Assembly: GCF_003073045.1 (NCBI RefSeq)
Contig: NC_037593.1
Location: 19,504,812-19,568,811, forward strand
Direction: 5' to 3'
DNA: 64,000 nucleotides
Source of the DNA: Pomacea canaliculata
Lineage: Eukaryota > Mollusca > Gastropoda > Architaenioglossa > Ampullariidae
This document shows, piece by piece, positions 1,091-55,371 of the stretch (position 1 is the first letter of the stretch; each line of letters starts with the position of its first letter). The translations under genes and the position numbers were made by a program. The notes beneath the pieces were generated by a model. That model saw only the letters and a list, made by a program, of their open reading frames with translations. It searched no databases and was not told the origin of the DNA.

Positions 1091-3209
1091 AACCTAGCAA
1101 GCGCTGGTCTACCGGCCCTCTACATTAAACTGATTAATAAATGTTAAATATGTCAATTATTATTATTCTTAATAAATTGTGTATAAATTCGGGTGAAAAT
1201 GAGTGGGAAAAAAAAAGGACGGAGGGAAAGTGTTTTCAGGAGAATTGCCATTATACAGCAAATGTAAAAAGCTAGCTTCATTTGTGTAAGTTACAAGACT
1301 ATAGGTAGGGTCTGTATTTCAATGCTCAGATATACCTCTTTATTGTGTATAACAGGAAGTAATGAGAAATTATTGATAGTTCTTGTATTTTTTGACATGG
1401 ATGGCATGCTTTGCTGGTGGAGGTTTGTGTACTGTTTTAGGGAACTGTTTTATTTCCTTAACTATATATTGCTTGTATGCATAATTATTGAGTGTGCATA
1501 TGTTTATATAAATGTATATATTCTTTAAATTGAATTGTGTATTATTCTGTGAGTATTCTACAACTCTTTTACATTAAAATATTGTAGATAAATGTATATA
1601 GAATACTTTAAGTTTAACCTTCTGTAGATTTCAATATCATTTATCATGCTATTTTGCAGGGTGGGTGGGTCGGTGAAGAATGGCTGTGCGGGAACAAGCT
1701 TTGCCACATAATAAAGACTAACACAGAAGCATACAGTGAACACAAAAAAGCTTGGAACTTACAGGCAGACAGAAAAATGAAATTCCTAGAGTACAAAAAT
1801 GAATATATTTCATCATCATCACCCAAATATCAAGATATCAGAACATCGCATGGTCGAATAAAGAAGAGGTGCTCAATCTAAATAATTAATAAAATGCAGG
1901 GATTTCTGTCACAGGCCAATAGATAACATAGATGATGACAATTTGTTAAGTTGTTTGCCTACAGGTGAATGAACAGATAGTAGTATCAGCTGACAAAGTA
2001 CTAGGAGGATGATGAAACTGCAGTTGAGACACATTTCGTTGCAGTCTGCAATGCCAACGCATTAAAATATATATATACACACAAGACATATAAAGTATTG
2101 AAATTTCATTGGACATTTTAAGGAGATCCAAACTGCCATGATAATGTATCTTTACTCCTAACTGTGTGTTAAATGTTTGTATGAGTATGTATGCCTGCCC
2201 TTGTGAGCAAAAGAAACATTTCTGTCTTGGGTCTCCTCGACAGACAATAAAGTCTGTTTTGATTTGATTTTGATTTGATTTGTGCTTCGGCAGTTCGTAT
2301 AGGCCAGCAATGTCGATCGCATTTAATTTTGGCTTCGTATACGACACTGATTGTTGTGGTGCAGGCGAAGTTATTTTCTTGTCCAAACTGTCGGGAAAAT
2401 AGAGTTCTATTTCTAATACTTCGGACAATGGCGTGGAGACTTTTTTGTCCTCCACCTGAGCAACGGCCATTAAATTGTGTACCACGTGATCCGCATCGTG
2501 GCGGCTCTCTATACAAATTTCAACACATGGGCGGTAACTCTCGTAAAAAGACAATACGGAGTTGTTGTTCTTAGTGATCAAAACTGATTTCAAACTTCTA
2601 GAATCTAGACTCTAGAGTCATTGTTTCATGGTGTGACTACGTACACTTCTACGGCCACAAGTTCCACCTACACGGTATGCCTCATTCCTTTAATTCTGAG
2701 CACGGACAGACATGATTTATTTATTTTACTTCCTATTTTCTGTTCTGAGACCTTAAATGACTTGATTTTAAGCAGTTTGTCCGACCCACTAAAGATGGCG
2801 ACGGTTTTATTCAATATAGCCAGTACCACATACTCTTAGATTTAAAAAAAAAAGCGTAAAATTCAGTAATTTTACAGAATTTCCTACTGAGTAAGAACCT
2901 ACGTCTTTAAAGAAAGCCGCAGCAGTAAAAGCTTTTCTCTTTCATTCTAATAGAGAGAGCGGCTGAAATCTCCCTTGCTTTTAAATGTTTGCTTATAATT
3001 TCCATGACAACTGAATGATTACAATTGTCATGTTTCAGGTCTGATAAGATTACAACAGGCTCAGGAGGTCTTCTATTGTCACTAGAAAGAATAGAGTTGA
3101 TGAAGCTGAGATCTTGAGCTTCATGGAAAGTTAGTCAACAGTAAGCGTAAAAGTACTTTTACCCAAAAGACAATAAATACAATCAGTAATTTTTGGAGAG
3201 CACAAAGAT
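1091..3209. other. Intergenic and possible 5' UTR of the zinc-finger gene
   Basis: No confident gene. A probable LINE/SINE 3' tail lies at about 2150-2285. A plausible splice acceptor (pyrimidine-poor, ending in TTTCAG) near 3038 could begin the exon that carries the zinc-finger start codon, so the last 170 bases may be 5' UTR. A 215-codon minus-strand frame at 1946-2593 runs across the repeat tail and was not accepted as a gene. Confidence 0.4.
2150..2285 (+). repeat. Probable 3' end of a LINE or SINE
   Basis: A segment with an AATAAAG motif near 2247 is followed directly by short TTTGATT-type repeats. This arrangement resembles 3' ends of CR1/L2- or RTE-like retroposons and their SINE partners, which finish in short tandem repeats. 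No coding part of an element was recognised next to it. Confidence 0.35.
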
Positions 3210-5137
3210 ATGTTTGCCATGAAGAGCGAGATGGAGGTCCCATGTACACTCATAAAGACTGAAACGAAATATATGGGTGAGGCACAAGAAGACCTAAGTG
3301 ATAATGTAATACCTAAAGCAGAAAGTTCATTTTGCTCTGATTATAATGAGACAAAATGTTTACAGAATGATTGCATGCAGCATGACAGTATCTTTGGCCA
3401 AGAACTCCATTATATAAAAATTGATCCAGCTGCACAGACAAACTGGAGGTGTGAGAATGTTCCGAAAGTGGAGATGAATTCTCAAGATTCCACTTCCTTC
3501 ATTAAAATTGAACAGAAAGACATTGTGAAGGTAGAATGGCCACATATGACTGAGCATAATCCTATAGTAAAGACGGACAGATCATGGCCTGGCCAGAATG
3601 TAATTTCTCAACTTGATACCGATAATGAATTTTATTGGAACTGCCAAAGCGATACTTATGAAGTGAAGACACAGTATGCAAAAAGACCTGTCACTTCTGA
3701 GATCAAGCATGAAGCTCCCTCTGGTCAAGGCGATAGTTCTGCAGTAAAGTCAGAGCAGACAAAATCACACACTCAGTCCACAATAATGGAGCACTTGAAG
3801 GCACAGAGTGTACCACAGGAGGTGGAGTGGAATTGCAGGAAAAATAAAGATATTTTAGCATGTATATCATCACCTGAACTTCAAGATATGGATGTTGCTG
3901 GATGTAAAAATACACAGGTAATGGATATTGTGACTGAAAGTCCTCAGCATGAGAGAAATGTAAATGTGACAGAAGCAAGCTTCAGTACTGAGTCAGAAAA
4001 ACAGCACCCTAGTAGTGATATTGAATCTGATAAGTGCAAAGTGTGTATTTCTTCATTTCATTTTCCATCCTTGCACAAAAAACACATGTCGAACCACACT
4101 AGTAAACCTCACAAGTGCAGAGGATGTAAAGCTGCCTTCAAAAGATTATCTGATTTAAAAAGTCATATGCGGGCTCACCGTGATAAGAGATCTCACCAGT
4201 GCAGTATATGTAAAGCTGCATTTAAAAGATCATATGTTTTAAAAGAGCACATGACGGTTCACAGTGATGACAAGCTTCACCAGTGCAGTGTATGTAAAGC
4301 TGCATTTAAAAGATTATCCTATTTGAAAGTACATACGCAGGTTCACATGGATGAAAAGCCTCACCAGTGCAGTGTATGTAAAGCTGCATTTAAAAGATCA
4401 TATGTTTTAAAAAAGCACATGGCGGGTCACAGGGATGAGAGGCCTCACCAGTGCAGTGTATGTAAAGCTGCATTTAAAAGATTATCCCATTTGAAAGTAC
4501 ATACACAGGTTCACAGGGATGAGAGGCCTCACCAGTGCAGTGTATGTAAAGCTGCATTTAAAAGATTATCCCATTTGAAACGACATACACAGGTTCACAG
4601 GGATGAGAGGCCTCACCAGTGCAGTGTATGTAAAGCTGCATTTAAAAGATTATCCCATTGAAAGTACATACGCAGGTTCACAGAGATGAAAAGCCTCACA
4701 AGTGCAGTGTATGTAAAGCTGCATTTAAAGGATTATCCCATTTGAAACGACATGCGCAGGTTCACAGGGATGAGAGGCCTCACCAGTGCAATGTGTGTAA
4801 AGCTACATTTAAAAGATCAGATGCTTTAAAAGAGCACATGACGGTTCACAGGGATGAGAGGCCTCACCAGTGCAGTGTATGTAAAGCTGCATTTAAAAGA
4901 TTATCCCAATTGAAACGACATGCGCAGGTTCACAGGGATGAGAAGCCTCACAAGTGCAGTGTATGTAAAGCCGCATTTAAAGGATTATCCCATTTGAAAC
5001 GACATGCGCAGGTTCACAGGGATGAGAAGCCTCACCAGTGCAGTCTATGTAAAGCTTCATTTAAAAGATTATCCCATTTGAAACGACATACACGTGTTCA
5101 CAAAGTTGAGAAGCCTTACCAGAGCAGGGTTTGTTAA
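3210..5137 (+). CDS. C2H2 zinc-finger protein with one frame break
   Basis: A probable nuclear DNA-binding protein. The first frame (3210-4661) encodes 483 residues: an acidic N-terminal region of about 270 residues without a KRAB, SCAN or ZAD domain, then C2H2 fingers of the form C-x2-C-x12-H-x3-H joined by linkers such as RDERPHQ. Seven fingers are complete. The eighth ends abruptly at KRLSH because the repeat reads CCCATTGAAAG where its neighbours read CCCATTTGAAAG (about 4657). The same array continues one frame over from 4658 with five more intact fingers to a TAA at 5135-5137, where TGTAAA of the repeat has become TGTTAA. The N-terminus holds several psi-K-x-E/D sequences (IKTE, IKIE, VKVE, VKTD, IKHE, VKSE), a sumoylation consensus. 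The ATG at 3210 is the first in frame. Either the gene truly ends early, or one T is missing from the assembly and the protein has about 13 fingers. Target unknown. Confidence 0.8.
4110..5130 (+). repeat. 84-bp tandem array encoding zinc fingers
   Basis: Each finger plus linker is 28 codons (84 bp). Units share long identical stretches at DNA level, for example TGTAAAGCTGCATTTAAAAG in nearly all copies. Two finger types recur: RLSHLK or RLSYLK, and RSYVLK or RSDALK. The low divergence suggests recent unequal exchange or gene conversion. Confidence 0.85.
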
Positions 5138-9701: not shown

Positions 9702-9707
9702 TTTATT
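9702..9707 (-). terminator. Candidate poly(A) signal of NUDT14
   Basis: AATAAA on the minus strand about 62 bases downstream of the NUDT14 stop codon. Confidence 0.5.
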
Positions 9708-9768: not shown

Positions 9769-12393
9769 TTACTGTTTCCATATGACATCAAAAAACCATT
9801 GTAACCCAAACAACAACCCACAGGGGCGATTAACAGTTTCATCATAAATGAGTTTTCTCCCTTGCTCAATGTCCATTTCCACCACTTCAATAAGCTCTCC
9901 TTCTTCAGCCAGCCCACCTCCAGTTCCAACACGCATGTCATCTGTCACATCTGCATAATACAGTATCTGCTTTGATCCTGTAGTCCCAACTCCTGCCCTA
10001 AAATAAGATAATCACAAATTATAACTTCAAAAATATTATTTTATCTAAAATGTTTGTAAGGAAAAAAAAAAAGATAAAAATTTGTTCCACGCATTTGCAA
10101 TTTAAAAGGCAATGAAGTAAAGAAAGCCAGTGTACCTAAAAGAAGTGATCTTCTTAATGGAGTCTATTGGGACCTTGTAACCACACTCCTCAAGCAGCTC
10201 CATTTGGGCCATCTCTTGAGGGCTATGATTTTTATCCATGATTCCTGCACAGAGCTCTATCGTCAACCCCAGCTCACCAGGATACTTTTCTGTATCCACT
10301 GTTTCTGCTTCACTGTCATCCTTGCTACTCACACAGTTGTTCAAGTACACAGCTGTAAAAAGAAGTGAGTGTATATTATTAATTTTTAAATATTAATACT
10401 TTTATTCTACAGGAAGCATATTTATTAACTAAAACGAAATCTTCTTCAAGTTCATACCTTCTGACAGACTAGCTCAAGCTAGTGACTATATTCACAATGT
10501 AACTATTGGATTATAGCCTTAGTTGTAAGTAATATGGAAAAAAACCAGGATCTTTTCTATGCAGTAAATAAATGTTTCGATGCAAAGACTGGTTAAAAAA
10601 GAAAAATTAATTTGCTCTTATTTTATAAATTAGTAAAGTCAGGTGATATTTCTGTTCCTCACTCATATGCTTGTTAGATCTTTCTCATTGTACTCTCTCA
10701 CTCAAATACACATGCATGAACACATAATTATGGCGATATTTGGTTCTCATTGTACCTGGTCTGAACTGCTTAACAAATACAAATACTTGTCTTGTACTGT
10801 TGAAAACAAGGATGGCAATACTGTAAAAATAAAAAAAATTTTTAAGACCACCGTACATTTTCACTTTATAGATGTAAGTAGGCATGCATCTATAAAAATA
10901 GGCATCCATGTACATGTACTTAGAAAATGTATTACACTTCAATAATTAAGTTTTAAGTCATAAATTTAAACAAACACTTTTATACATATGCATGTTTATC
11001 TGAATACACATACACACATATTATGTGAAAAATAAGGATCAATTAAAAGCATTATAATTTTTAAGATTATTTTTTACATTGAAACCTACCTATCATGTAC
11101 ACGCATTGCATCCCATGTCTTTTGCATACCAGTCTACAATAAAAAGTATTATGAATACTTATTACTTAGTAATAAATACTCTTTCATGATTCATAATAAA
11201 TACTCTTTCATTCTTAAGATAAGCTGTGAGAGGATTTAATTTTTGCATAAGATTTAGTTGGATGTTTTTGCTTCCATATATTTGTTCATAAAATATTTTT
11301 ATGTAGCTCAGACAAAATATTCTATAAAAAGAAGCAAATGTAACAATAATAACAGTTTAAAATTTAAAAAATCAGATCAGCAAATGCATGTACAAAGCAA
11401 TATGAAACAGTGGAGGTTGTACTTTTACTTCGCTTAGTGCTCATTTAACATGTCCAATAAAAATATTGATAAAACTCAGAAAATAATAATGCAAACTAAA
11501 CTAAAGATAAAACAAATCAAAAAAATAAAGCTATATTGCTGACATCTGTGTGGAAATCTATAGTCCATGTTGTTCTTTGTGAACAGAATAAAAACTCAGA
11601 AAATAATAATGCAAACTAAACTAAAGATAAAACAAATCAAAAAAATAAAGCTATATTGCTGACATCTGTGTGGAAATCTATAGTCCATGTTGTTCTTTGT
11701 GAACAGAATACATGTTTGCTAAAGACAAACAAATACTAAGAAACTGTTCTAACAAATATGAAAAAGCTGCAAAATACACAAATAAACACAACTGTAATTT
11801 CCAGAACTGAGCTTTTTATGCCCCTTATTTCATGATTCATGTCAACATTTCATGTTGAATAAACAATATTTTGGAAAGAGGCGTTTGACTGTCCTAACAA
11901 TTATTATTATGCTACAGAAATGAGTAAACTTACTCATCATACTCTTTGATGAGGTCCCATGCTTTCTGTTCATTGTTCTGCATGTAACACAAGATAACAT
12001 TAAATACTGCTTAATAAAAAAAAAAATTAAAGGATATTTGGAATGTTCCTATTTTTGTCTTCTGCACTCAGCTAGACCTCTTCCTTCGAGTACAATCATT
12101 CGCACCCTTGACAGGTGCAAGCGCTCATGCTTTATAACAAAAGTAATATTTATGCTTTTAGTGCTAGCAGTATAATTCTCCCTGCGCTAGAAATATACTT
12201 CACACACGGTGTGACAAATACCAACAGCTCTCACATATTATCTTACAGCGTTAGGCAGTAATAGGTATCACGGTTTCTCGTAAAACTCTAGAGACACAAA
12301 AATAACATTTACCTGTTTATAATGCATCCTAATAGGATGGATGTATTTAGATTCAATGCAGGGAACAAGTTTTACATCGGATATCACGTCCAT
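9769..12393 (-). CDS. NUDT14: NUDT14-type UDP-sugar pyrophosphatase
   Basis: A Nudix hydrolase that in its family splits UDP-glucose and related nucleotide sugars into UMP and sugar phosphate in the cytosol. Exons on the minus strand: 12313-12393, exon 2 (either 11934-11977 or 11090-11133), 10756-10820, 10136-10352, 9769-9997. All junctions are GT-AG and all phases agree, giving 211 residues (human NUDT14 is 222). It begins MDVISDVKLVPCIESKYIHP and continues through ILVFNSTRQVFVFVKQFRPA. The Nudix box at about residues 100-122 is GIMDKNHSPQEMAQMELLEE plus CGY; the Arg of the generic REUxEE motif is Met here, and human NUDT14 also departs from Arg. The C-terminus (GVGTTGSKQILYYADVT, then NRPCGLLFGLQWFFDVIW) matches the family. 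The start at 12393 is the first ATG and aligns with the human N-terminus. Two versions of exon 2 are present. No frame errors. Confidence 0.93.
11090..11133 (-). other. NUDT14: NUDT14 exon 2, version b (44 nt)
   Basis: Preceded by TATTGTAG and followed by GTAGGT on the minus strand. It encodes TGMQKTWDAMRVHD plus two bases that make Ser with the next exon, so the protein reads VHDSIAILVF, very close to the human order THDSVTVLLF. Length (44 nt) and phase are identical to version a, so either can be used but both together would shift the frame. Confidence 0.8.
11471..11710. repeat. Perfect 120-bp tandem duplication
   Basis: Bases 11471-11590 are repeated without a mismatch at 11591-11710. The duplication lies in the intron between the two NUDT14 exon 2 versions. 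Perfect identity means either a very recent event or an assembly artefact. Confidence 0.95.
11934..11977 (-). other. NUDT14: NUDT14 exon 2, version a (44 nt)
   Basis: Preceded by ACATGCAG and followed by a strong GTAAGT donor on the minus strand. It encodes NNEQKAWDLIKEYD and forms Asp at the junction (EYDDIAILVF). It shares the QK-x-WD core and downstream spacing with version b, so the two are homologous exons about 0.8 kb apart. Confidence 0.8.
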
Positions 12394-16025: not shown

Positions 16026-19000
16026 TCAGTTGCAGACGTAGACCTGAGGAGGAAAATCGTGGCTCCAGCGAATGGTTTCCCCCGGCAGAACGATCTGCAG
16101 TCCATGGTGGTAGAGGGTAGCGAGGTCGTGCTCCACACCCTGCATGTACAGACGAACGTTGGGACACTGGCCCAGGTTGATGGCCAGCAGCTGCGGGCAA
16201 TCCAGCTGCAGGCGGTGCACGTCGCGGCACCCGAACATGTTGAGGAACTTGAGGGGAACAGCCTCCAAGGCCACCTGCGTGATGCTCCGACACTTCTCCA
16301 GGTTCAGGTGCGCGATGTTGGGACAGCCGTGCAGCGCCATCTGCAGCACGTAGTCGCTCATGCAGCAGCGGTACAGCACCACCGTGCGAGCCAGTGGCGT
16401 GCTCAGTGAAAATAGGTTCACCTGCGGAAGGACAAACACTGAATAAAACACGGCGATCAGAACGATGATAAAAAGAAGTGAAGAAACAAGAAGACATCAA
16501 TGTATGACCAAGCATCTATGACACTGATAGTGTGAAGTGAGCGGGTTAGTGTACAGACATGTGGATATGTTTTATTGATGATGATAATGAGGAGGAGGAG
16601 GAGGAGGAGGAGGAGGAGGAGGAGAAGGAGAAGGATGATATGAAAAAACAACAATAAGATGAAGAGATCGCTTTTATAGCCTATGATGAAAAACCCTGTG
16701 CGCGAAAGTTCTGTTCTAAACATGATAGGTAACCTTGCAGTCGAACAGCCTTAGAAAGCCGACGGATCCGAGGGCTTGGATGATGCAGGAATCCAGCACC
16801 AGCTGGTCGTCGCTGCAGAGGTTGAGCTCGATTGCATCGACGCTGACGCACTGTACCACCAGCGTCTTGAGCGCCGGCGTGCCGATCAGCGCCACCTTGC
16901 ACAGGTGGTTGGCGGTGATGTAGACGTGGTTCAGCGTGATGATGTCGTTGTCGGCTTCCGTGTGGAACAGGCGCAGGCTGGGGCTACGTACGTGCACAGC
17001 CTCGCACGAGAAGTCTCCCAGCAGACACAGCTCCTGCACCCCGGGTACCAGCGTCTCTTCCAGCAAAAGAGAGTCCACAGACAGACAGCCAAGCTTGAGG
17101 ACCGCTACCCGAGGGTTCTTGTACAGGGTGTCCTTCAGGGTGCGCATGTCCAGCTCCTCGCAGTTGCTCAGCTCCAGATACAGAAGTCTTCCGCCTTTGA
17201 TATTCAGGGTGTGAAGGACGTTACTTCCGTTGATGCATGCGCGGCGCAGCTTTGGAGAATAGATCTCTAAGTGCTCCATGGACTCTAGGCCTTGGTCCAC
17301 AGTCACGTGACGGAGGTCTGGGGCTTCTATGCTGACAAAGAGAACGTTCCAGAGGTTGAACAGGTAGAACTTCTGCAGCGAGTCAGACACGAGCCTTATG
17401 CCATGCAGGTGCTGAAACACGTAAAAAAATCCCAACTCTCTTCTTTCAAGTCTTTATCAGATCAGCTTAAATCAAGTATTTATTCTGTGTGTGTGTGTGT
17501 GTTTTTAATGACGTATCATTCACTGAATTGTTCCACGAAGATGATAGAGTTAGGTCTCTTTTAGTCAGTCAATCGCAGAACCTGATAATTTTAATGCTGT
17601 TACTGCTGGTGCTGTTGGCTATTGTTACTATTTGGGTTTTAAATCTTGATAACGAACGTGTGGCAAAATGGAGAGAGACTACAACAACTCTTATGTGGTG
17701 TCGGTCCGTTTTTGCCCACGGTGAATATAAAAGCATGTAGAAGTGGGTCGTTTGAGCTCGTTCATCACCAGATACTAAGGGTCAAGGGGGTTGGGTAACA
17801 TTCGCTTCATCATCATGAAAAGTTCATAAAACTCAGGGGAGAGATTGGCAGACACGCCGACCGACTGACCGAATATTCAGTTTAATAACCCAAGCACGAA
17901 TACTTGGGCGTGGGAGCCCGGGAAAGCACGCCTGAGAAACTTGACCAACACCCGTGTGCACAGCTGGCCCCAGCCTGCTGACGTCATCAGGCACAGATCA
18001 ATGACGTGACTGAGGTGACAGAACGCGCTGTTAACATCGACTGGTGGCGCCCCTTAGCCCTCCCTCTCCAACAGCAGCACAAGCAATAATAATAATAAAT
18101 GCAAAATGTGTAAAGCGCAGACTCACACTCACAAGGAGCATGCTCTTATAGCTTATAAACAAGAACGAAACATGGACACCATACGGGGGACAGGAAAACA
18201 AACAAACAACATATGAACTATGAAAGAATAAACAACCGTACTAAGAGAAGAATAAAATCAAATACATAAAACGCAAAGAGGAACCAAATAACAGGAACAA
18301 GAGCTGAGAGTAACATGATATTACAAAAGGAAGGGTGTGATAAAGGACTAGCATTATGAGAAAGGTTATTAGGAGTAATGAAGTAATAAAGACAGCTAGC
18401 GGTTCATATAGATGTGTATTCTTCTTGTTCCCAATCACCCCCAGTGGAGCATAGGGCCACACACACACACATATATATATATACTAAGATATTTCAGGCG
18501 CTTAGGTTTGAAAGCCACGGTTTCAAAAATGTAATCATTTTTCGACTTTTCAACGATGTTTAAGGGGAGAGAGAGAGACTTGAATTTACGATTCATAGAG
18601 ACTGTCGGTAGATAAATAAACTTAAAGATCAGTTTCATATAAAACACGTCCCGTCCCTGTTTTTGTTTTTGTTGTAGAATCCCTACTCTTAGCTTTATCA
18701 CTAAAGTGCCAGGTAGCGTCAGTCTGTTACCTCTGAGTCTTGTTTTTAGAAGCTTACCCCTTTGTTTTCCCAGTGTCGAGGTGGATTTCATTTCAAGCGG
18801 CGGTAACATACGGTCAAAGCTTGTTTGTTTTTTTTAAAGAGAGGTTCGGTAACATATTAATACTTTTGAAATGAACTGCAAGATGACGTCTGAAAGTTGA
18901 AAAGGTTGAATGAGAAGTGTACCTCCGAAGTACTGGTAACATAGTAACATGTAATAGTATTCAGTATTTCACACTGTACATATTTCTCAGGCTACCTATT

Positions 19001-21452
19001 TACAATTTGATCGAACATCCAAAATCCCTACCCGCCCAATCCTTACAAATAAAATTACTGTTTGTCTGAGTATTAGCAAGCGCTGTAAAGAGTAAAAATG
19101 TTTGAAAGGTTGTAGATAGGTGAAAGGTCACAGATTTTAATTATTATTGCATGAGCCTAGAGTTTTTTCTTTTTATATCAACTTTAGCTGACTTGGATAA
19201 GTAGTTTTTTTTCTAGGATTGGTTTAATTTCTGTTAAAGAAGACAATACGTTTAATCACACCTAATTTAATCAAATCACATTGTGACTGACTTAAAATAT
19301 ACTGTTTGGGAAGGATCGAGAATAGGAAAGACTTTGGCCCGTGTCAACGTACGAAAACCACTTTCACCAGAATCTCAGGCTTAAATCTCATCGCCGCCAG
19401 GTGTATTTTCTGTCTCCATGGATATTCTAACGTCCCTGCTGCTCTCTCTCTCTCTCACAAACACACACTTTTGTGCGACACTGACATCCTGTCGTAGTTA
19501 CACTCCACAAGTCTACAGGATATATCTAGAACTTAAAGCGACCGCGAGCTCACGTGAACCCCACCCCATTTCAGCTGAAAGCTCGCAAGCCCACTTGGTC
19601 TGCCTAACGCTGCCTGTCTCTGAAAACCACTCACCCTGTTATAAACACAAGCTGTTGTAAACCACACTAAACCTCTCGCCACCATGTGCTTGTACAACAG
19701 TTCTCGAAACACGGGCCATGACCACGCCGCAACAAGTTGTTGCAAGTATGGCGGAAATATACTACAGGCGTTTCCATATCCAATCATCCATAACGACCGA
19801 CATCACTGCCCCATCGCGCCACGTCAGCAATGTCCTTTTGCGCGGAATTTAAGCACGCGCGAATGTTTCCCGACCAGCCGTGCTGTTTTCACGTGCATGT
19901 TGCAATAGGGAAGGGGGAGTATAGAAGGGGAGGGCTTGGGGGGAATTCGTTATCCAGTTGCGAGATGAGAAAAATCGGAGGCGGCCGGCATGCCTAAAAT
20001 CGATGTGCTCACGTCAATGGCGAGCGTTAGGCGACCCGACTACATACAGAAAAAAAAGTCGAGTAAACTCAACGGCTGTCAATCGGAGCGAAGGGCGTTT
20101 AAATTATAAAGCGCTGACGTCAGGAGAGAGAAAGCTTTAAACAAGTCTTTCTTCTTGATCTACGAACGTTGAGAAAGACAGAGAGAGAAGAGAAAGTGAA
20201 GGGGAAAAGAAAGAGAGAGAGAGAGAGTGGAGGAAAGGCAGAATGAATGCATATATAATGGATGGAAAAAGATTTAACAAAATGAAGAAATTTATAAACG
20301 ATCTATTGCGTGTAGGATGGACTGTTCATGCTATCTTAGTGATGAGCAGACCAAAAAAGTCAACGACTGGCATAGTAATCTCCCACGCTATCAATCTGGT
20401 GAATTTTGAACTATGCTTACAATCTTAATGTTGTCATACTCTAGTCCTGATGATGCGTGCATGGGTATCATAACGTCAACCGCTGCAGACCGCACCACAG
20501 CCGTTAACACCAGTAACAACCCCATCAACATTAACAGCAGCACCAGCAACACCATGATCTCTACTCCCACCATCAATACCAGCAACCGCAGCTACGTGGC
20601 ACTCACTTCACAGTTGCTGATGCTGAGCTTCTTCAGGCACTTCATCTTCCTGACGATGGTCCAAAGCTCGTCCATTTCGATGGGCACGAAGTGCAGGCAC
20701 AGCACACTGACCAGCCGAGCCCAGGGTCCTTCCGACACCACCTGCGCGATTCGACCGCCCTCCCGCATGGCGTGTTCACTGCGGACGTCACTCAGGGGCA
20801 GCCCCGAGTTGATCTTCAGCTTCAGCGTCTCCAGGTGCGGCAGCGCCTCCAGAAACTGGCTGACTCCCTTGGAGGTCATCATCCAGCAGGCGTTGAGCGA
20901 CACGACCTTCAGCGCCTGGAAGTACATGCCGACCCTCTCCAAGTCCTCGTCACACAGGGAGAAGCCGCCGTTAATCTGCACCTGCTCCAGGCGGCTCAAG
21001 GGGAACAACGACTCCACCACGGCCCGCGTCCACAAGATGGGCAGGCGGAGGTAGCGCAGGTTGGACAGGCGCGGGACCAGCGCGAAGACGCTTTCATACA
21101 CCGGAGAGTGTTCGTGCCAGGTCAGGCGCTGCACGTGTAGTCCGTAGACGCGGAAGACGCAGCAAATGAGAGAGAAGTGCCAGTACTTGTACGCGCGCGG
21201 GTCAACGTGCAGCTCGCGCCACAGGCTGCTGGTGGAGGACAGGACGCGACGCCACTTGCTGCACACCATGGCCAGCAGCGGCAGCTCGTCCAGGATGGGG
21301 TGCAGGTACCCAAAGATCCTCGCCAGAATCTCGTCGGGCAGGTCGTTGACGTGGATACCCCACAACGTCGTTTTGCTCATCCGGGTCAGGGCTCCCGACT
21401 CAGGATTCCCGTTCTTGTCGCTCTTGACGAACCCAGTTCCCTGAACCAGCAT
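16026..21452 (-). CDS. F-box protein with LRR-like repeats (639 aa)
   Basis: A likely substrate receptor of an SCF ubiquitin ligase, judged from the F-box only. Exons on the minus strand: 20607-21452, 16734-17411, 16026-16421; both introns are phase 0 with GT-AG ends, and the frame is open throughout. The start is strong (CCGCCACCATG). The F-box is at about residues 36-80: VNDLPDEILARIFGYLHP, then LLAMVCSKWRRVL and SLWRELHVD. The remainder consists of leucine-rich segments of the type LxxLxLxxCxxL, for example YLELSNCEEL, AHLNLEKCRSITQ, LKFLNMFGCRDV and LLAINLGQCPNV, extending nearly to the C-terminus. That would bind substrate in FBXL-type proteins. I cannot assign it to a named FBXL or FBXO orthologue. 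The exons are markedly richer in G+C than the surrounding introns. Shadow frames on the opposite strand were ignored. Confidence 0.88.
16589..16634. repeat. GAG/GGA microsatellite
   Basis: A run of GGA units followed by GGAGAAGGAGAAGG, within the second intron of the F-box gene. Confidence 0.9.
17412..20606 (-). other. First intron of the F-box gene
   Basis: A 3.2-kb intron (donor GTGAGT, acceptor GTTTCAG). It contains a short GT run near 17487, a MITE/SINE-like piece near 18083-18160, an AC/AT microsatellite near 18460-18483 and a GA run near 20205-20228. No internal gene recognised. Confidence 0.7.
18083..18160. repeat. Short interspersed repeat with AATAAT lead
   Basis: AATAATAATAATAA followed by TGTGTAAAGCGCAGACTC and AAGGAGCATGCTC. 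A segment at 31097 also has an AATAATAATAA lead followed by a TTTATAAAG-like core, so both may belong to a class of short nonautonomous elements. Assignment is tentative. Confidence 0.35.
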
Positions 21453-24400
21453 GGTGGCGGTTTGGTCACTTTCAAGGAAGGAAAACTCTTCATAGGTGTT
21501 TCTTCAGAAACAGATGCAGGAACACGCGCTCCTCTTAGTGTGACATCGTCTCACGTTGCTGAGAATTAAACAAACAAAACAAACAAAAATAATAATATGA
21601 CCAGCTGGGTCTCTCGTCCTACTTGTGTGGATGCTGAGGGCTACGTGTAGAGAGCCACATCTTGACCTCACTACCATGCAGTCTGATACGGCTACTGCTA
21701 GCAGAATCTCTTACCTCCATTGATTTTGTCATAACCGTTCCAAATAGTGAAACGTAGGATTACAGCCCCTTTGAAATTGTCAAATTTTTGTATAATACTC
21801 ATCCACAAATCACAGTTAGGGTCAAAATTAGTTTGCCAAGACTTACAGCGATTTCCGAGGGAAGAATGATCAAATGAGAGGCTGAATTTCGCGTGGGGAA
21901 GGACGATGAGTCCGCTGCGACCCGCAGCAGCGTGCCTTGGCGTGTAAGTTGTAGTAAACCGCCCAACGTCTGATTCATTCACAAAACACCCACGCATCTC
22001 TCGCCTCTCGTGTCAGGCGAGCAGCGCCTTCCCACTGTCGTGCGCCGAGGCCCGACGACTGCAGGCCGACGACAAACAGCAGCAGCAGCAACAACAACAA
22101 GCCTGACGACTGTGCATCGTGCACTGATGGTGGCTCACCTGCCCCGCACCATGCCAGCCGTCAGCTCGTAACTGTGCCGACGTCATTGCGAGAGTTGGTA
22201 GAGTGCAGTCCCCTTGCACCTGACGAGCGCCTGCATGAACGCCGACTCTCAAGGGAATTTCAAACAACGAAACTGCGTTGTGGAGCTGAACCCAGCCAAC
22301 GATGATCTGTACGAAGATCGATTAGAGATGTGGCGAAGGATATCCGTGGACTGTTCCCCCCCGCACGAAGTAGATAATCACGCTTAATTGTTGCTGCACA
22401 GTCGTTATGTTCTTTCAGCAGTTTGTTTTGTTGTTTTTTTTTAAAGAGAGGGTTGCTCGCCGTGGCTCGTTTTAAATGATGCTGGCAGGCCCAGTGCAAA
22501 TATCTGACACGTGCGTGGCAGTGACGCGTGCAGATGGCTGCGAGCGTGCGCACAGTACAAGTAAGTATGCGCAGGTAGACCGTTCAGGCTATTAAATAGG
22601 CCTCCCGGCTCCCTACTCGACCCACCGTCCATAACATCATACCTCCCCATGTCTGCATGCCAGCTTTTCCCTGAACTGGTCAGGCCAGGCCATGCATAAA
22701 ATGTCTCGTGTACGTTTAACCCAGTATTATAACATTATTCTACTGTCTAAACCTACAACATTAAAACAACCACATGATCACTAATAATCATCGACTCATA
22801 TCTGAAACATACAGGTTCGTGTCTCAATGCGTCTGTGTAGGATAAAAAAAAAAATGTTCCTTCAACATAGTGGTAAGTGCATCCAGGAAGAAAGTGGAGA
22901 ACATTATGGATATTAAAATAAATACCGTCGTGAGGTGGGTGACAGCTGGGGATAATTATATAACAAAGGATAATCACAGAAAGCAGCTGCAGCAAGGCAG
23001 ATCAAGGCCCATAACTAATACCCAGGCTGTGTTTTTTGCGTCCCTTGGCGAAGCTTTCTCCCTTGCTGTCTGTCTTGAGATCATCCTGAGTACATTTTAC
23101 AGGTAGTTGCCGTTGACTGAAATAGGAATTTGCATTTACTCAGCATTTCTCATAATATTTTAGTCATTACCGACTGTAATAGTCAAGTTTTCACCTCCGC
23201 TCCAACAACCCATAGCCCAAAAAAAAAAAAAAAACCAAAACAAAAAAAAAAAAAGAAAGAAAAAAATTATTAAAATAAAATAAATAAAAAAAAGATGAAG
23301 TGGTGGGAGAAGATAAAGAAAAAAATATCCCTCCATTGTATTAGTGCAATGCTTGAATCATGGTTTTCGGCTTAGAAAAAGAAAGACTACGAAAAGACAT
23401 TAAATGGATCCACGAAGTTGGGTGGGGAGTTTACTGGCATTGGGGAGGGGCATCTTGAGGTGATCAGCAGAATCTGCGCTTCCATGGGGGACCAGTTGGC
23501 GGTAACTTTGACGCGCCTTACTAGTAAGTAATGTGAATAGCTGGACAACTTAAAAGCGCTGTCACGTATACACGTATGATAAGAAGAAAACTATGCTCAC
23601 ATTAAATCAACGGCAAGGAAAACATTTTTTCAAACACTTTTTTTTTTATTACATCGTTGTGTACAGCGAGTGACACTTTGAAGTGCTATAGAGAACGTTG
23701 AACGTAGTTTTCGTTTTTGACGAATTTTTCACAAAAATGGTGACATGTGGTCCAGTGCACTAAGATCTCCCTGAATACGACCTCCTGACCTGCACTTCCG
23801 AAACTCCCTTACATCTTTACGGGGATTATTATGACAGAAAAGATTGCTACTGCAGTTTTTGTGACAGTCGGTACAATTAAGGCCATGGAATGACTAAGCC
23901 CTTCTTTAAGTTTTGCGGAAATGGGTGACCATGCATACTCTCATAGACATCTCTTGATAGTGTAAGTCGTTCTTAAACATTTATCATAATAATAAAATTA
24001 CGTGTAAAAATTTCCACCCCATACAAATTTAATGCTTCATATATATATATACACACATATACACACACGGCGATTTTTTGTGTTAATAATAACAAAAACT
24101 AAACCAAATACACGAAAAAGCTGTGTAATCTCCGCCAAATCAGATGTGAGCACATTGGACTGATCTTGACAGCTGACAATCTTTAGAAGTGAGAATGAAT
24201 GCATGCCAGGAATAAAAAAAAATCTGTAATCTGCCTGCGGTGCGTTTCAGTACTCAGCTGCGACAAGGATCAATGTAGGGGTACGGGTGTGTCTGTATGC
24301 ACTGTGCATTTATAGGTGTGTGCGTGTGCCCTCCTACCACCTCTGCCAGTCAACAGACTGAAGAGGGGGAGTCCAAGAACACAATTAGGTGCATCACGAC

Positions 24401-53200: not shown

Positions 53201-54985
53201 AGCGTCATTCACACTTGTATATTTGATATTCATTTATGGTTTGTTTGTTTGTTTGTTTGTTTGTTTGTTTGTTTGTTTTTTGTTAATTTCGTGGAAAGGA
53301 GCATCCTGGTAGTTTCACAGACTGTATTGTTCTGTTACTCAGTCCCCAGTCCCCCTCCTATCAAGATGACGAAATATTTGCTGTATCTTATCGTAACGGT
53401 CCTTTTCTCACGATGGCGAAAGTTTACAATTATTATCATTTAATAACCATAATTTAATAGCGAAGTTCTCTTTACTTTTAGCATATTTTCTTTCACAGCA
53501 AAGTATTATTGGCCAATTTATACTTTTGAATCGTTTGCTTACTGTTTACTTTTTCCCGTCTGACGCACTGACAAGATTTTTTTGTCCTGATTTTTTTTTT
53601 TCTATTCGATGATACCTTCTTAATTATCAGGTTCATCTTTTGAAGCTAGAAGTAGAGAGTGGAGTGGGGTGAGTGGGGTTTGTGGCAGAATATGGATCAG
53701 TGAGTGATAATACCAGAGGAGAGGAAATTATTCCAGAATGCCTAGCTCGCCGTTTGTTTTGTTTTTGATTTTTGTTTTTTTGGTGGGGGGTGAGGGGCTT
53801 TTGGATCAAGTCTTATAGTTTTTTTTGTTTTCGTCCGGAGGAATGAACTCTGTAGAAAGAGAAGGTAATAACAGGGCACCAGTAGTCCCCCAGCAGACCA
53901 CACGCCACAACCGGTAGGAATAATTAGAAGAAGGAGCGTTGAACTCTGACCTTAGTTTTACCGTCACTTGCACGCTGGGAGACCCAGAGCGATGTAACAT
54001 TGGCTAAATCACGACATTGTTCAACGAACTGCTGTTGTTTTTTGTTTTATGCTTTTTTGAGTACTTTTGCTCCTTATTTGTCATTTTCATTTTCTCATTT
54101 CTAAAATGGGCTAAATTTAAAAAAGTATTGAAAGATACAATAGTATGAGCTTTTATTTTTTAATCTATTTAATTAGACTAGTGACTAAGCAACGGGTTCA
54201 TTTCGGAAAAAACCCACTGGTTTTCCACTACTTTATACTAATTAATTTTATTTAAAAAATCATTACTGTATATTACGATTTTAAACTAGCAAAAATATTA
54301 ACATTGATATATTACTACTTTATACTAATTAATTTTATTTTAAAAAATCATTACTGGTATATTACGATTTTAAACTAACAAAAAATATTAACATTGGGTA
54401 TATTACTATTTTATACTAATTATAAAAATATTTACACCGATATATTACTACTTTATGCTAATTTATAAAAAAATACTAACATTGATATATTACCACTTTA
54501 TACCAATTAATTTATTTAAAAATATACACACACTGGGATTTATAAAAATACTAACAGTGGTATATTACTATTTTATACTTATTTATAAAAATACTAACAG
54601 TGGTATACTACTATTTTATACTATATGAAAATACGAACACTAGTATATTACTATTTTATACTAATTTATAAAATACTAAGGTTAGTATATTACTACTTCA
54701 TGCTAATTAAGTTGTCAACATTGGTAATTACTTTTTATAAAAAATACTAACACTGGTATATTACTACTTTACCCTAATTTATAAACATACTCTGGTAAAT
54801 TAGTACTTTATACTAATTTATAAAAATACTAATGAAAGCATATTACTACTTTACGATAATTAATTTGTCAAAAAATAACATTGTATACTGCTATTTTATA
54901 CTAATTTATATAAATAATTGCACTGGTATAGTACTTACTTTAAACTAATTAATAAAATACCAACACTGCCACCATGTGTATGTGG

Positions 54986-55017
<32 letters not shown>

Positions 55018-55371
55018 TGTCGACAGGTGAAAATTTGGTTCCAAAACCGTCGCGCCCGGGAAAGAAGAGAGCGCGAGGCCTCGCAGCGGACTCAGCTGCT
55101 GACGCAGAACACCTACCAGCCGCTGTCCATACCTTCCGTCACGTGGGCCCTGACGTCACAGCTACCGTCCTCGTCTTTCTCGTCGCAGTTTCGGAACGAC
55201 GCGAGCTTCCGGCCTGGTCTGTTCACGTCTGCCTTCAGCAGCTTCTCCACTCCTCTCCGAATGGCAGCAGCAGCAGCGACGGCGGTGGCGGCGGCGGCGA
55301 CGGAAGGCGGACCTGCATCTTCCTGCACGTGGGTGGAGTGTGGAAGTAGAGAGGAAGGCAGCTTCTGCTGA
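44247..55371 (+). CDS. ANTP-class Msx/Msx-like homeobox protein (three exons, frame discrepancies)
   Basis: A homeodomain transcription factor, nuclear. Exons: 44247-44516, 47601-47771, 55027-55371. It begins MKFSIDNILGL, an eh1-type Groucho-binding motif. Exon 1 ends with YQWLQCTRYHPPKLQ in a second frame. Exon 2 gives KKRKFGRNPRVPFTQHQVAV, LEERFDK and HYLSTMDVAELSAALTLSET; exon 3 gives VKIWFQNRRARERRERE. W48, F49, N51 and R53 are present, and the intron falls between homeodomain positions 44 and 45, a classic site. Exon 3 adds about 95 Ser/Ala-rich residues to a TGA. Three single-base shortfalls are implied: between 44369 and 44470 (simplest at the GGG of 44376-44378), at the exon 2 start (GGG 600-602) and at the AAA of 47704-47706. 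With each taken as one missing base, all phases agree and the product is about 262 residues. Either consensus errors or a young pseudogene. Msx or the invertebrate Msx-like (Msxlx) family fits best, but I am not certain. Confidence 0.75.
44517..47600 (+). other. Intron 1 of the homeobox gene
   Basis: Donor GTAAGT, acceptor ATTGCAAG. The content is AT-rich with a GAC microsatellite at about 45976-46010 and A-rich runs at 46900-46945. No other gene recognised. Confidence 0.65.
47772..54224 (+). other. Main part of intron 2 of the homeobox gene
   Basis: Donor GTATGA. Contains an ACC/GGT-type run near 48487-48515, a TTTG microsatellite at 53239-53275 and otherwise unremarkable AT-rich sequence. 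Several 70-110 codon open frames have no support. Confidence 0.6.
53239..53275. repeat. TTTG microsatellite
   Basis: About nine tandem TTTG units. Confidence 0.95.
54225..54968. repeat. AT-rich minisatellite, about 40-45 bp unit
   Basis: A degenerate tandem repeat with consensus close to GGTATATTACTACTTTATAC, then TAATTTATAAAAATACTAAC A, recurring roughly 17 times with some larger variant units containing AATTAATTTTATTTAAAAAA. It occupies the end of the homeobox intron 2 and stops about 60 bases before exon 3. Confidence 0.9.
54985..55016. repeat. GAT microsatellite directly before the homeobox exon 3 acceptor
   Basis: About ten GAT units separate the minisatellite from the acceptor TGTCGACAG. 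The region where a polypyrimidine tract is expected is therefore purine-rich. Confidence 0.95.

Follow-up and report, generated by a model that had tools for sequence, protein, structure and literature searches.

The question raised by this locus is whether one gene of the snail Pomacea canaliculata encodes two versions of the enzyme NUDT14, with each transcript able to use only one of two copies of a short exon. Within the 64,000 nucleotides of DNA that were analysed (the window), translation and splice borders define a complete NUDT14 coding sequence on the minus strand at 12393-9769, with a GT at the start and an AG at the end of all five introns examined. The coding part of exon 1 (12313..12393; 81 nt, 27 aa), which aligns to human NUDT14 and contains Tyr17, ends in phase 0 at the donor gtaaat. 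It is followed by two exons of 44 nt, namely exon 2a (11934..11977; acceptor ..ttacatgcag, donor gtaagt), encoding NNEQKAWDLIKEYD(D), and exon 2b (11090..11133; acceptor ..ttattgtag, donor gtaggt), encoding TGMQKTWDAMRVHD(S), with a GT-AG intron of 800 nt and 27% GC between them (11134..11933). Exon 3 (10756..10820; 65 nt), placed by its splice borders and translation, exon 4 (10136..10352; 217 nt), which carries the Nudix-box region GIMDKNHSPQEMAQMELLEECGY, and the coding part of exon 5 (9769..9997) keep the coding sequence intact as far as the stop codon TAA at 9771-9769. An AATAAA on the same strand at 9702..9707, 61 nt past the stop, is a possible poly(A) signal, the motif being common in the window (177 occurrences over the two strands, where 100 shuffles average 90). 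The 2a/2b intron also holds two identical 120-nt copies in tandem at 11471..11710 (11471-11590 and 11591-11710), with no third copy among the genome matches listed; they stem either from a duplication that is very recent or from an artefact in the assembly.

Both protein forms can be assigned to NUDT14, a YffH/AdpP-type Nudix hydrolase, with the form containing exon 2b (form b) and that containing exon 2a (form a) scoring 110 and 113.1 bits respectively on TIGR00052, above its cut-off of 79.55, and with NUDT14 as the best characterised relative. NUDT14 is the best match of both forms among solved (PDB) structures, with E values of 1.4e-52 (form b) and 5.1e-51 (form a), whilst no Pfam family matched either form at E up to 1e-3. 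The strict Nudix box consensus is GX5EX7REUXEEXGU, of which the snail box keeps Glu115, Glu118, Glu119, and Gly121, with Met114 at the position of the arginine (a lysine in human) and His106 at that of the first glutamate. Human NUDT14, a UDP-glucose pyrophosphatase (9gem, 8otv, 3q91), is similar to snail residues 6-206, and because the alignment runs from residue 6 to 66 without gaps, residue numbers agree between the two proteins over this stretch. The solved human protein has one version of the exon 2 segment, NGAQKSWDFMKTHDS, whereas the snail gene encodes two, the comparison on the human side being with the protein.

Two protein searches of the snail genome (440,159,624 bases, 24 contigs), in which the best candidates alone were scored (6 and 4) and short or distant exons may escape, each listed five places at E up to 1, every one an exon of the NUDT14 gene. 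Among the matches listed, at E up to 1 across the 440-Mb genome, there was no second NUDT14 gene, paralogue, or retrocopy recording a splice form. Searches of viral and prokaryotic collections, which have no bearing on molluscs, gave 17 pattern matches in viral contigs and 51 in genome contigs, with no confirmed relatives in either, and no match at 1e-5 in plasmids using tblastn with form a.

Elsewhere in the window, a C2H2 zinc-finger array lies on the plus strand at 3177-5137, its frame breaking near 4650 between two overlapping ORFs, which may reflect a frameshift, a pseudogene, or an assembly error. An ORF on the minus strand at 20592-21503 contains an F-box (PF12937), and another ORF further along that strand, at 16716-17453, looks leucine-rich by eye but has no Pfam match. 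The 3' end of a homeodomain (KIWFQNRRARERRE; PF00046) is found on the plus strand at 54949-55371, and the minus strand at 58552-59004 matches a ligand-gated ion channel (PF00060) with 32.3 bits, the cut-off being 30.8, and is perhaps a piece of an ionotropic glutamate receptor gene.

Exons 2a and 2b are both open, lie in the same phase between AG and GT borders, and encode N-N-E-QKAWDLIKEYD-D and T-G-M-QKTWDAMRVHD-S respectively across their joins. Since exon 1 finishes on a whole codon (phase 0) and the codon left incomplete by a 44-mer gains its third base from exon 3, either version can be spliced in frame, with 2a alone or 2b alone giving a protein of 211 aa, and with an early stop arising after 81 aa if both are included and after 43 aa if neither is. 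Amongst the stop-free 44-nt frames of 12312-10821, 2b and 2a match the human segment with scores of 56 and 46, the third-ranking frame scoring 11, with no third copy of the exon found in this region, and 9 of 15 residues in 2b and 7 of 15 in 2a are as in human NUDT14. The mutual score of 2a and 2b (33) was reached in none of 1000 dinucleotide shuffles, the largest shuffle score being 9 when AG and GT were demanded and 27 when they were not. The two exons are neighbouring, of like length and the same phase, with detectable homology; both are open with usable splice borders, and their joint inclusion or skipping would leave no working product. The coordinates, lengths, borders, phases, and peptides that an earlier note on this DNA had given for the two exons proved exact, and its proposal of two homologous versions, exactly one of them usable, is borne out by the frame outcomes and the shuffles, as is its view, by residue counts, that 2b lies closer to the human segment. 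With a probability of about 0.8, and judging from sequence, we read the locus as a tandem duplication of exon 2 that yielded two mutually exclusive 44-nt exons, which would give two 211-aa Nudix hydrolases differing at 10 of 15 positions (28-42). The snail can thus probably make two versions of the enzyme from this one gene.

We read the mutual exclusion as enforced at least by the frameshift, such that mixed or skipped products would be lost through frameshift and nonsense-mediated decay, with the ratio of 2a to 2b presumably set by cell-type splicing factors. Amongst human clusters of mutually exclusive exons, 377 (60%) are reported to have non-triplet lengths and 57 (9%) potential steric interference (PMC5740500). 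No exclusion mechanism besides the frameshift is visible in the snail sequence. Steric exclusion was rejected because the 2a/2b intron, at 800 nt, is long enough for 2a-2b splicing, and incompatibility between U12 and U2 splice sites was also rejected, the donor sites that follow exons 1, 2a, and 2b being unlike the U12 consensus and of U2-type appearance. Competing RNA pairing did not go beyond shuffles, its strength being equalled by 30, 75, and 50 of 100 shuffles for whole introns and by 6, 18, and 13 of 20 for 40-nt windows at steps of 20, comparisons which have little power with one sequence. The motif UGCAUG occurs once at 10888, ~200 nt past 2b, and once in the intron after exon 3, and is not counted as evidence since one is present in 9% of shuffled versions of the first intron.

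The position of the exchanged segment in the protein suggests what the choice would alter. In a co-crystal of human NUDT14 with an inhibitor, Trp34 of one chain and Tyr17 of the other are reported to stack on the ligand, with Asp35 also bonding to it; these contacts lie at the dimer interface, the ligand being the inhibitor and not a natural substrate (PMC11089510). In the snail, Tyr17 is encoded by exon 1, and Trp34 and Asp35 by exon 2. Residues Gln31, Lys32, Trp34, Asp35, and Asp41 are common to 2a and 2b, and the other 10 of the 15 columns differ, with residues 36 to 40 and 42 changing between versions around Trp34 and Asp35. The exchanged segment would line the pocket that receives the ligand where the two chains of the dimer meet, with the stacking Trp34 and the hydrogen-bonding Asp35 kept. 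The earlier note had placed the segment just before the first conserved beta strand, which understates the case, since the ligand contacts Trp34 and Asp35 lie within it (PMC11089510). The ligand residues of NUDT5 are given in the same report as Trp46, Trp28, Glu47, and Arg51, of which Arg51 is described as unconserved in NUDT14 (PMC11089510). Residue 39 of NUDT14, a threonine in human, a valine in 2b, and a glutamate in 2a, appears equivalent to Arg51 of NUDT5, both lying five residues after the tryptophan. Reported substrates of human NUDT14 include ADP-glucose, ADP-ribose, NADH, and Ap3A (PMC5688067). Because the contacts are kept, their neighbours changed, and the human enzyme active on several substrates, the exchange is likely to tune how tightly the enzyme binds its substrates or which it prefers (nucleotide sugars, ADP-ribose, or dinucleotides), as opposed to abolishing activity. 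Furthermore, both chains contribute residues to each active site, so that the three kinds of dimer (a/a, b/b, and a/b) may not behave alike.

Exons 2a and 2b agree at no more than 21 of 44 bases. Both copies look to have been maintained, since synonymous differences are saturated (pS 1.00; 7.2 over 7.2 sites), replacement differences are fewer (pN 0.42; 15.8 over 37.8 sites), these being small numbers from 15 codons, and simulated neutral decay of 2b never preserved the human match. When 2b was mutated at random with AT-rich draws, down to the observed 2a-2b identity, 7324 of 20000 simulated copies stayed open and none of the 20000 was open with a human match of 2a grade. Similarity between the two copies is confined to the exons, since for the 200 nt of flanking intron on either side 91 and 142 of 200 shuffles did as well.

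These results bear on the possibility that 2a is dying or already unused, with 2b alone spliced and the second copy without a role. Exon 2a is indeed farther from human (7 against 9 of 15 residues), lies on the longer branch, with 6 inferred substitutions compared with 4 for 2b, and sits in a weaker donor context, TGA/GTAAGT scoring 1.61 on a donor-site matrix compared with 4.59 for TAG/GTAGGT of 2b, the 95th percentile of the 158 GT sites of the gene, real donors included, being 1.34. However, the open frame, exact length of 44 nt, phase, AG, and GTAAGT of 2a have all been kept, no neutral decay of 2b reached a comparable human match, and form a scores slightly above form b on TIGR00052 (113.1 against 110 bits), and the loss of 2a is considered distinctly unlikely. 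The second exon of the pair may nevertheless be weakly used. It is more improbable still that the pair acts mainly as an on/off switch, in which inclusion of both exons or neither yields a decaying mRNA and lowers NUDT14, with the protein forms themselves equivalent; the stops after 81 aa and 43 aa would suit such a role, however a switch of the poison type could do without a second exon of conserved coding sequence, and both peptides look maintained and diverge beside ligand residues. Very little credence can be given to alternative promoters, whereby a further first exon, hidden in the intron that separates 2a from 2b, would give the 2b form a 5' end of its own and make the choice transcriptional, for although 2b contains an in-frame ATG (TGM..) and has the 800-nt intron upstream, both versions fit exon 1 in phase, no other full-length frame resembling exon 1 was found in 15000-8500 (next score 13 against 145), and the next score for the last 12 residues of exon 1 (29 against 70), at 10823, is exon 3 plus its acceptor in another frame.

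The earlier note held the duplication to be lineage-specific, which is unsupported, as 2a and 2b share no derived residue among 15, compared with differences between snail and human at 24 of 46 flanking residues. Of the 15 columns, 5 show one residue throughout 2a, 2b, and human, and 4 show three different residues; human agrees with 2a alone in 2 and with 2b alone in 4, whilst no column sets the two snail exons together apart from human, giving three-point branch lengths of 6 for 2a, 4 for 2b, and 2 for human plus the shared stem. A recent duplication should leave shared derived residues. By a crude calculation over the 10 non-uniform columns, the chance of seeing no shared derived residue is 0.0006 if all of the snail-human divergence fell in the part of the history shared by 2a and 2b, 0.007 if three quarters did, 0.049 if half, and 0.25 if a quarter, with the caveats that shared changes could be masked in the four columns where all three differ and that the 15 residues are possibly under unequal constraint. 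This is no more than suggestive of an old duplication, or of fast change after it, but it does tell against a lineage-specific one. A joint reading, tentative and as a whole rather unlikely, is that the pair arose no later than about the time of the last ancestor shared by molluscs and vertebrates, that vertebrates later retained the 2b-like version alone, and that the pair yields a nucleotide-sugar hydrolase switched by splicing. In this reading, the pocket site occupied in NUDT5 by the ligand-contacting arginine would be acidic in 2a, and aa, ab, and bb dimers with different substrate preferences would come from one gene.

No published account of two NUDT14 exon 2 versions was found amongst the open-licence PMC papers listed, judged by title and start of abstract. 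The kind of arrangement is already known from coq-2, including in molluscs, and on sequence-level features the NUDT14 pair would be a further case. Exons 6a and 6e of coq-2, described in C. elegans and other helminths, are likewise a pair of equal and non-triplet length, 134 nt in C. elegans (PMC7434440). Like the NUDT14 pair, they exchange a part of the enzyme core near the substrates, with similar pairs reported in annelids and molluscs (PMC7434440). In contrast to the NUDT14 pair, which is predicted from sequence, coq-2 encodes a polyprenyltransferase, its splicing has been seen in RNA, and an effect of exon removal is reported in C. elegans (PMC7434440). In human tandem duplicated exons, such as those of the metabolic enzymes KHK, ACOX1, PKM, and PFKP, predicted ligand residues are kept in both versions in 80.6% of cases compared with 53.1% for other residues of the same proteins (PMC9741552), and the retention of Trp34 and Asp35 in the snail, with contacts kept and neighbours changed, fits this pattern. 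These four human enzymes belong to other families and have expression data, with PKM and PFKP differing at one allosteric ligand residue (PMC9741552).

Human tandem duplicated exon regions are reported to comprise 14% of residues and 10.7% of predicted ligand residues, those touching ligands being the less usual sort (PMC9741552), and the coq-2 case, in an enzyme core, revealed a metabolic switch (PMC7434440). If both exons are used, the snail NUDT14 pair would constitute a natural experiment, in which a segment of 15 residues is swapped whilst two ligand contacts within it stay fixed, in an enzyme of which little is known biologically, and which, more speculatively, may be tied to nucleotide-sugar control in snails.
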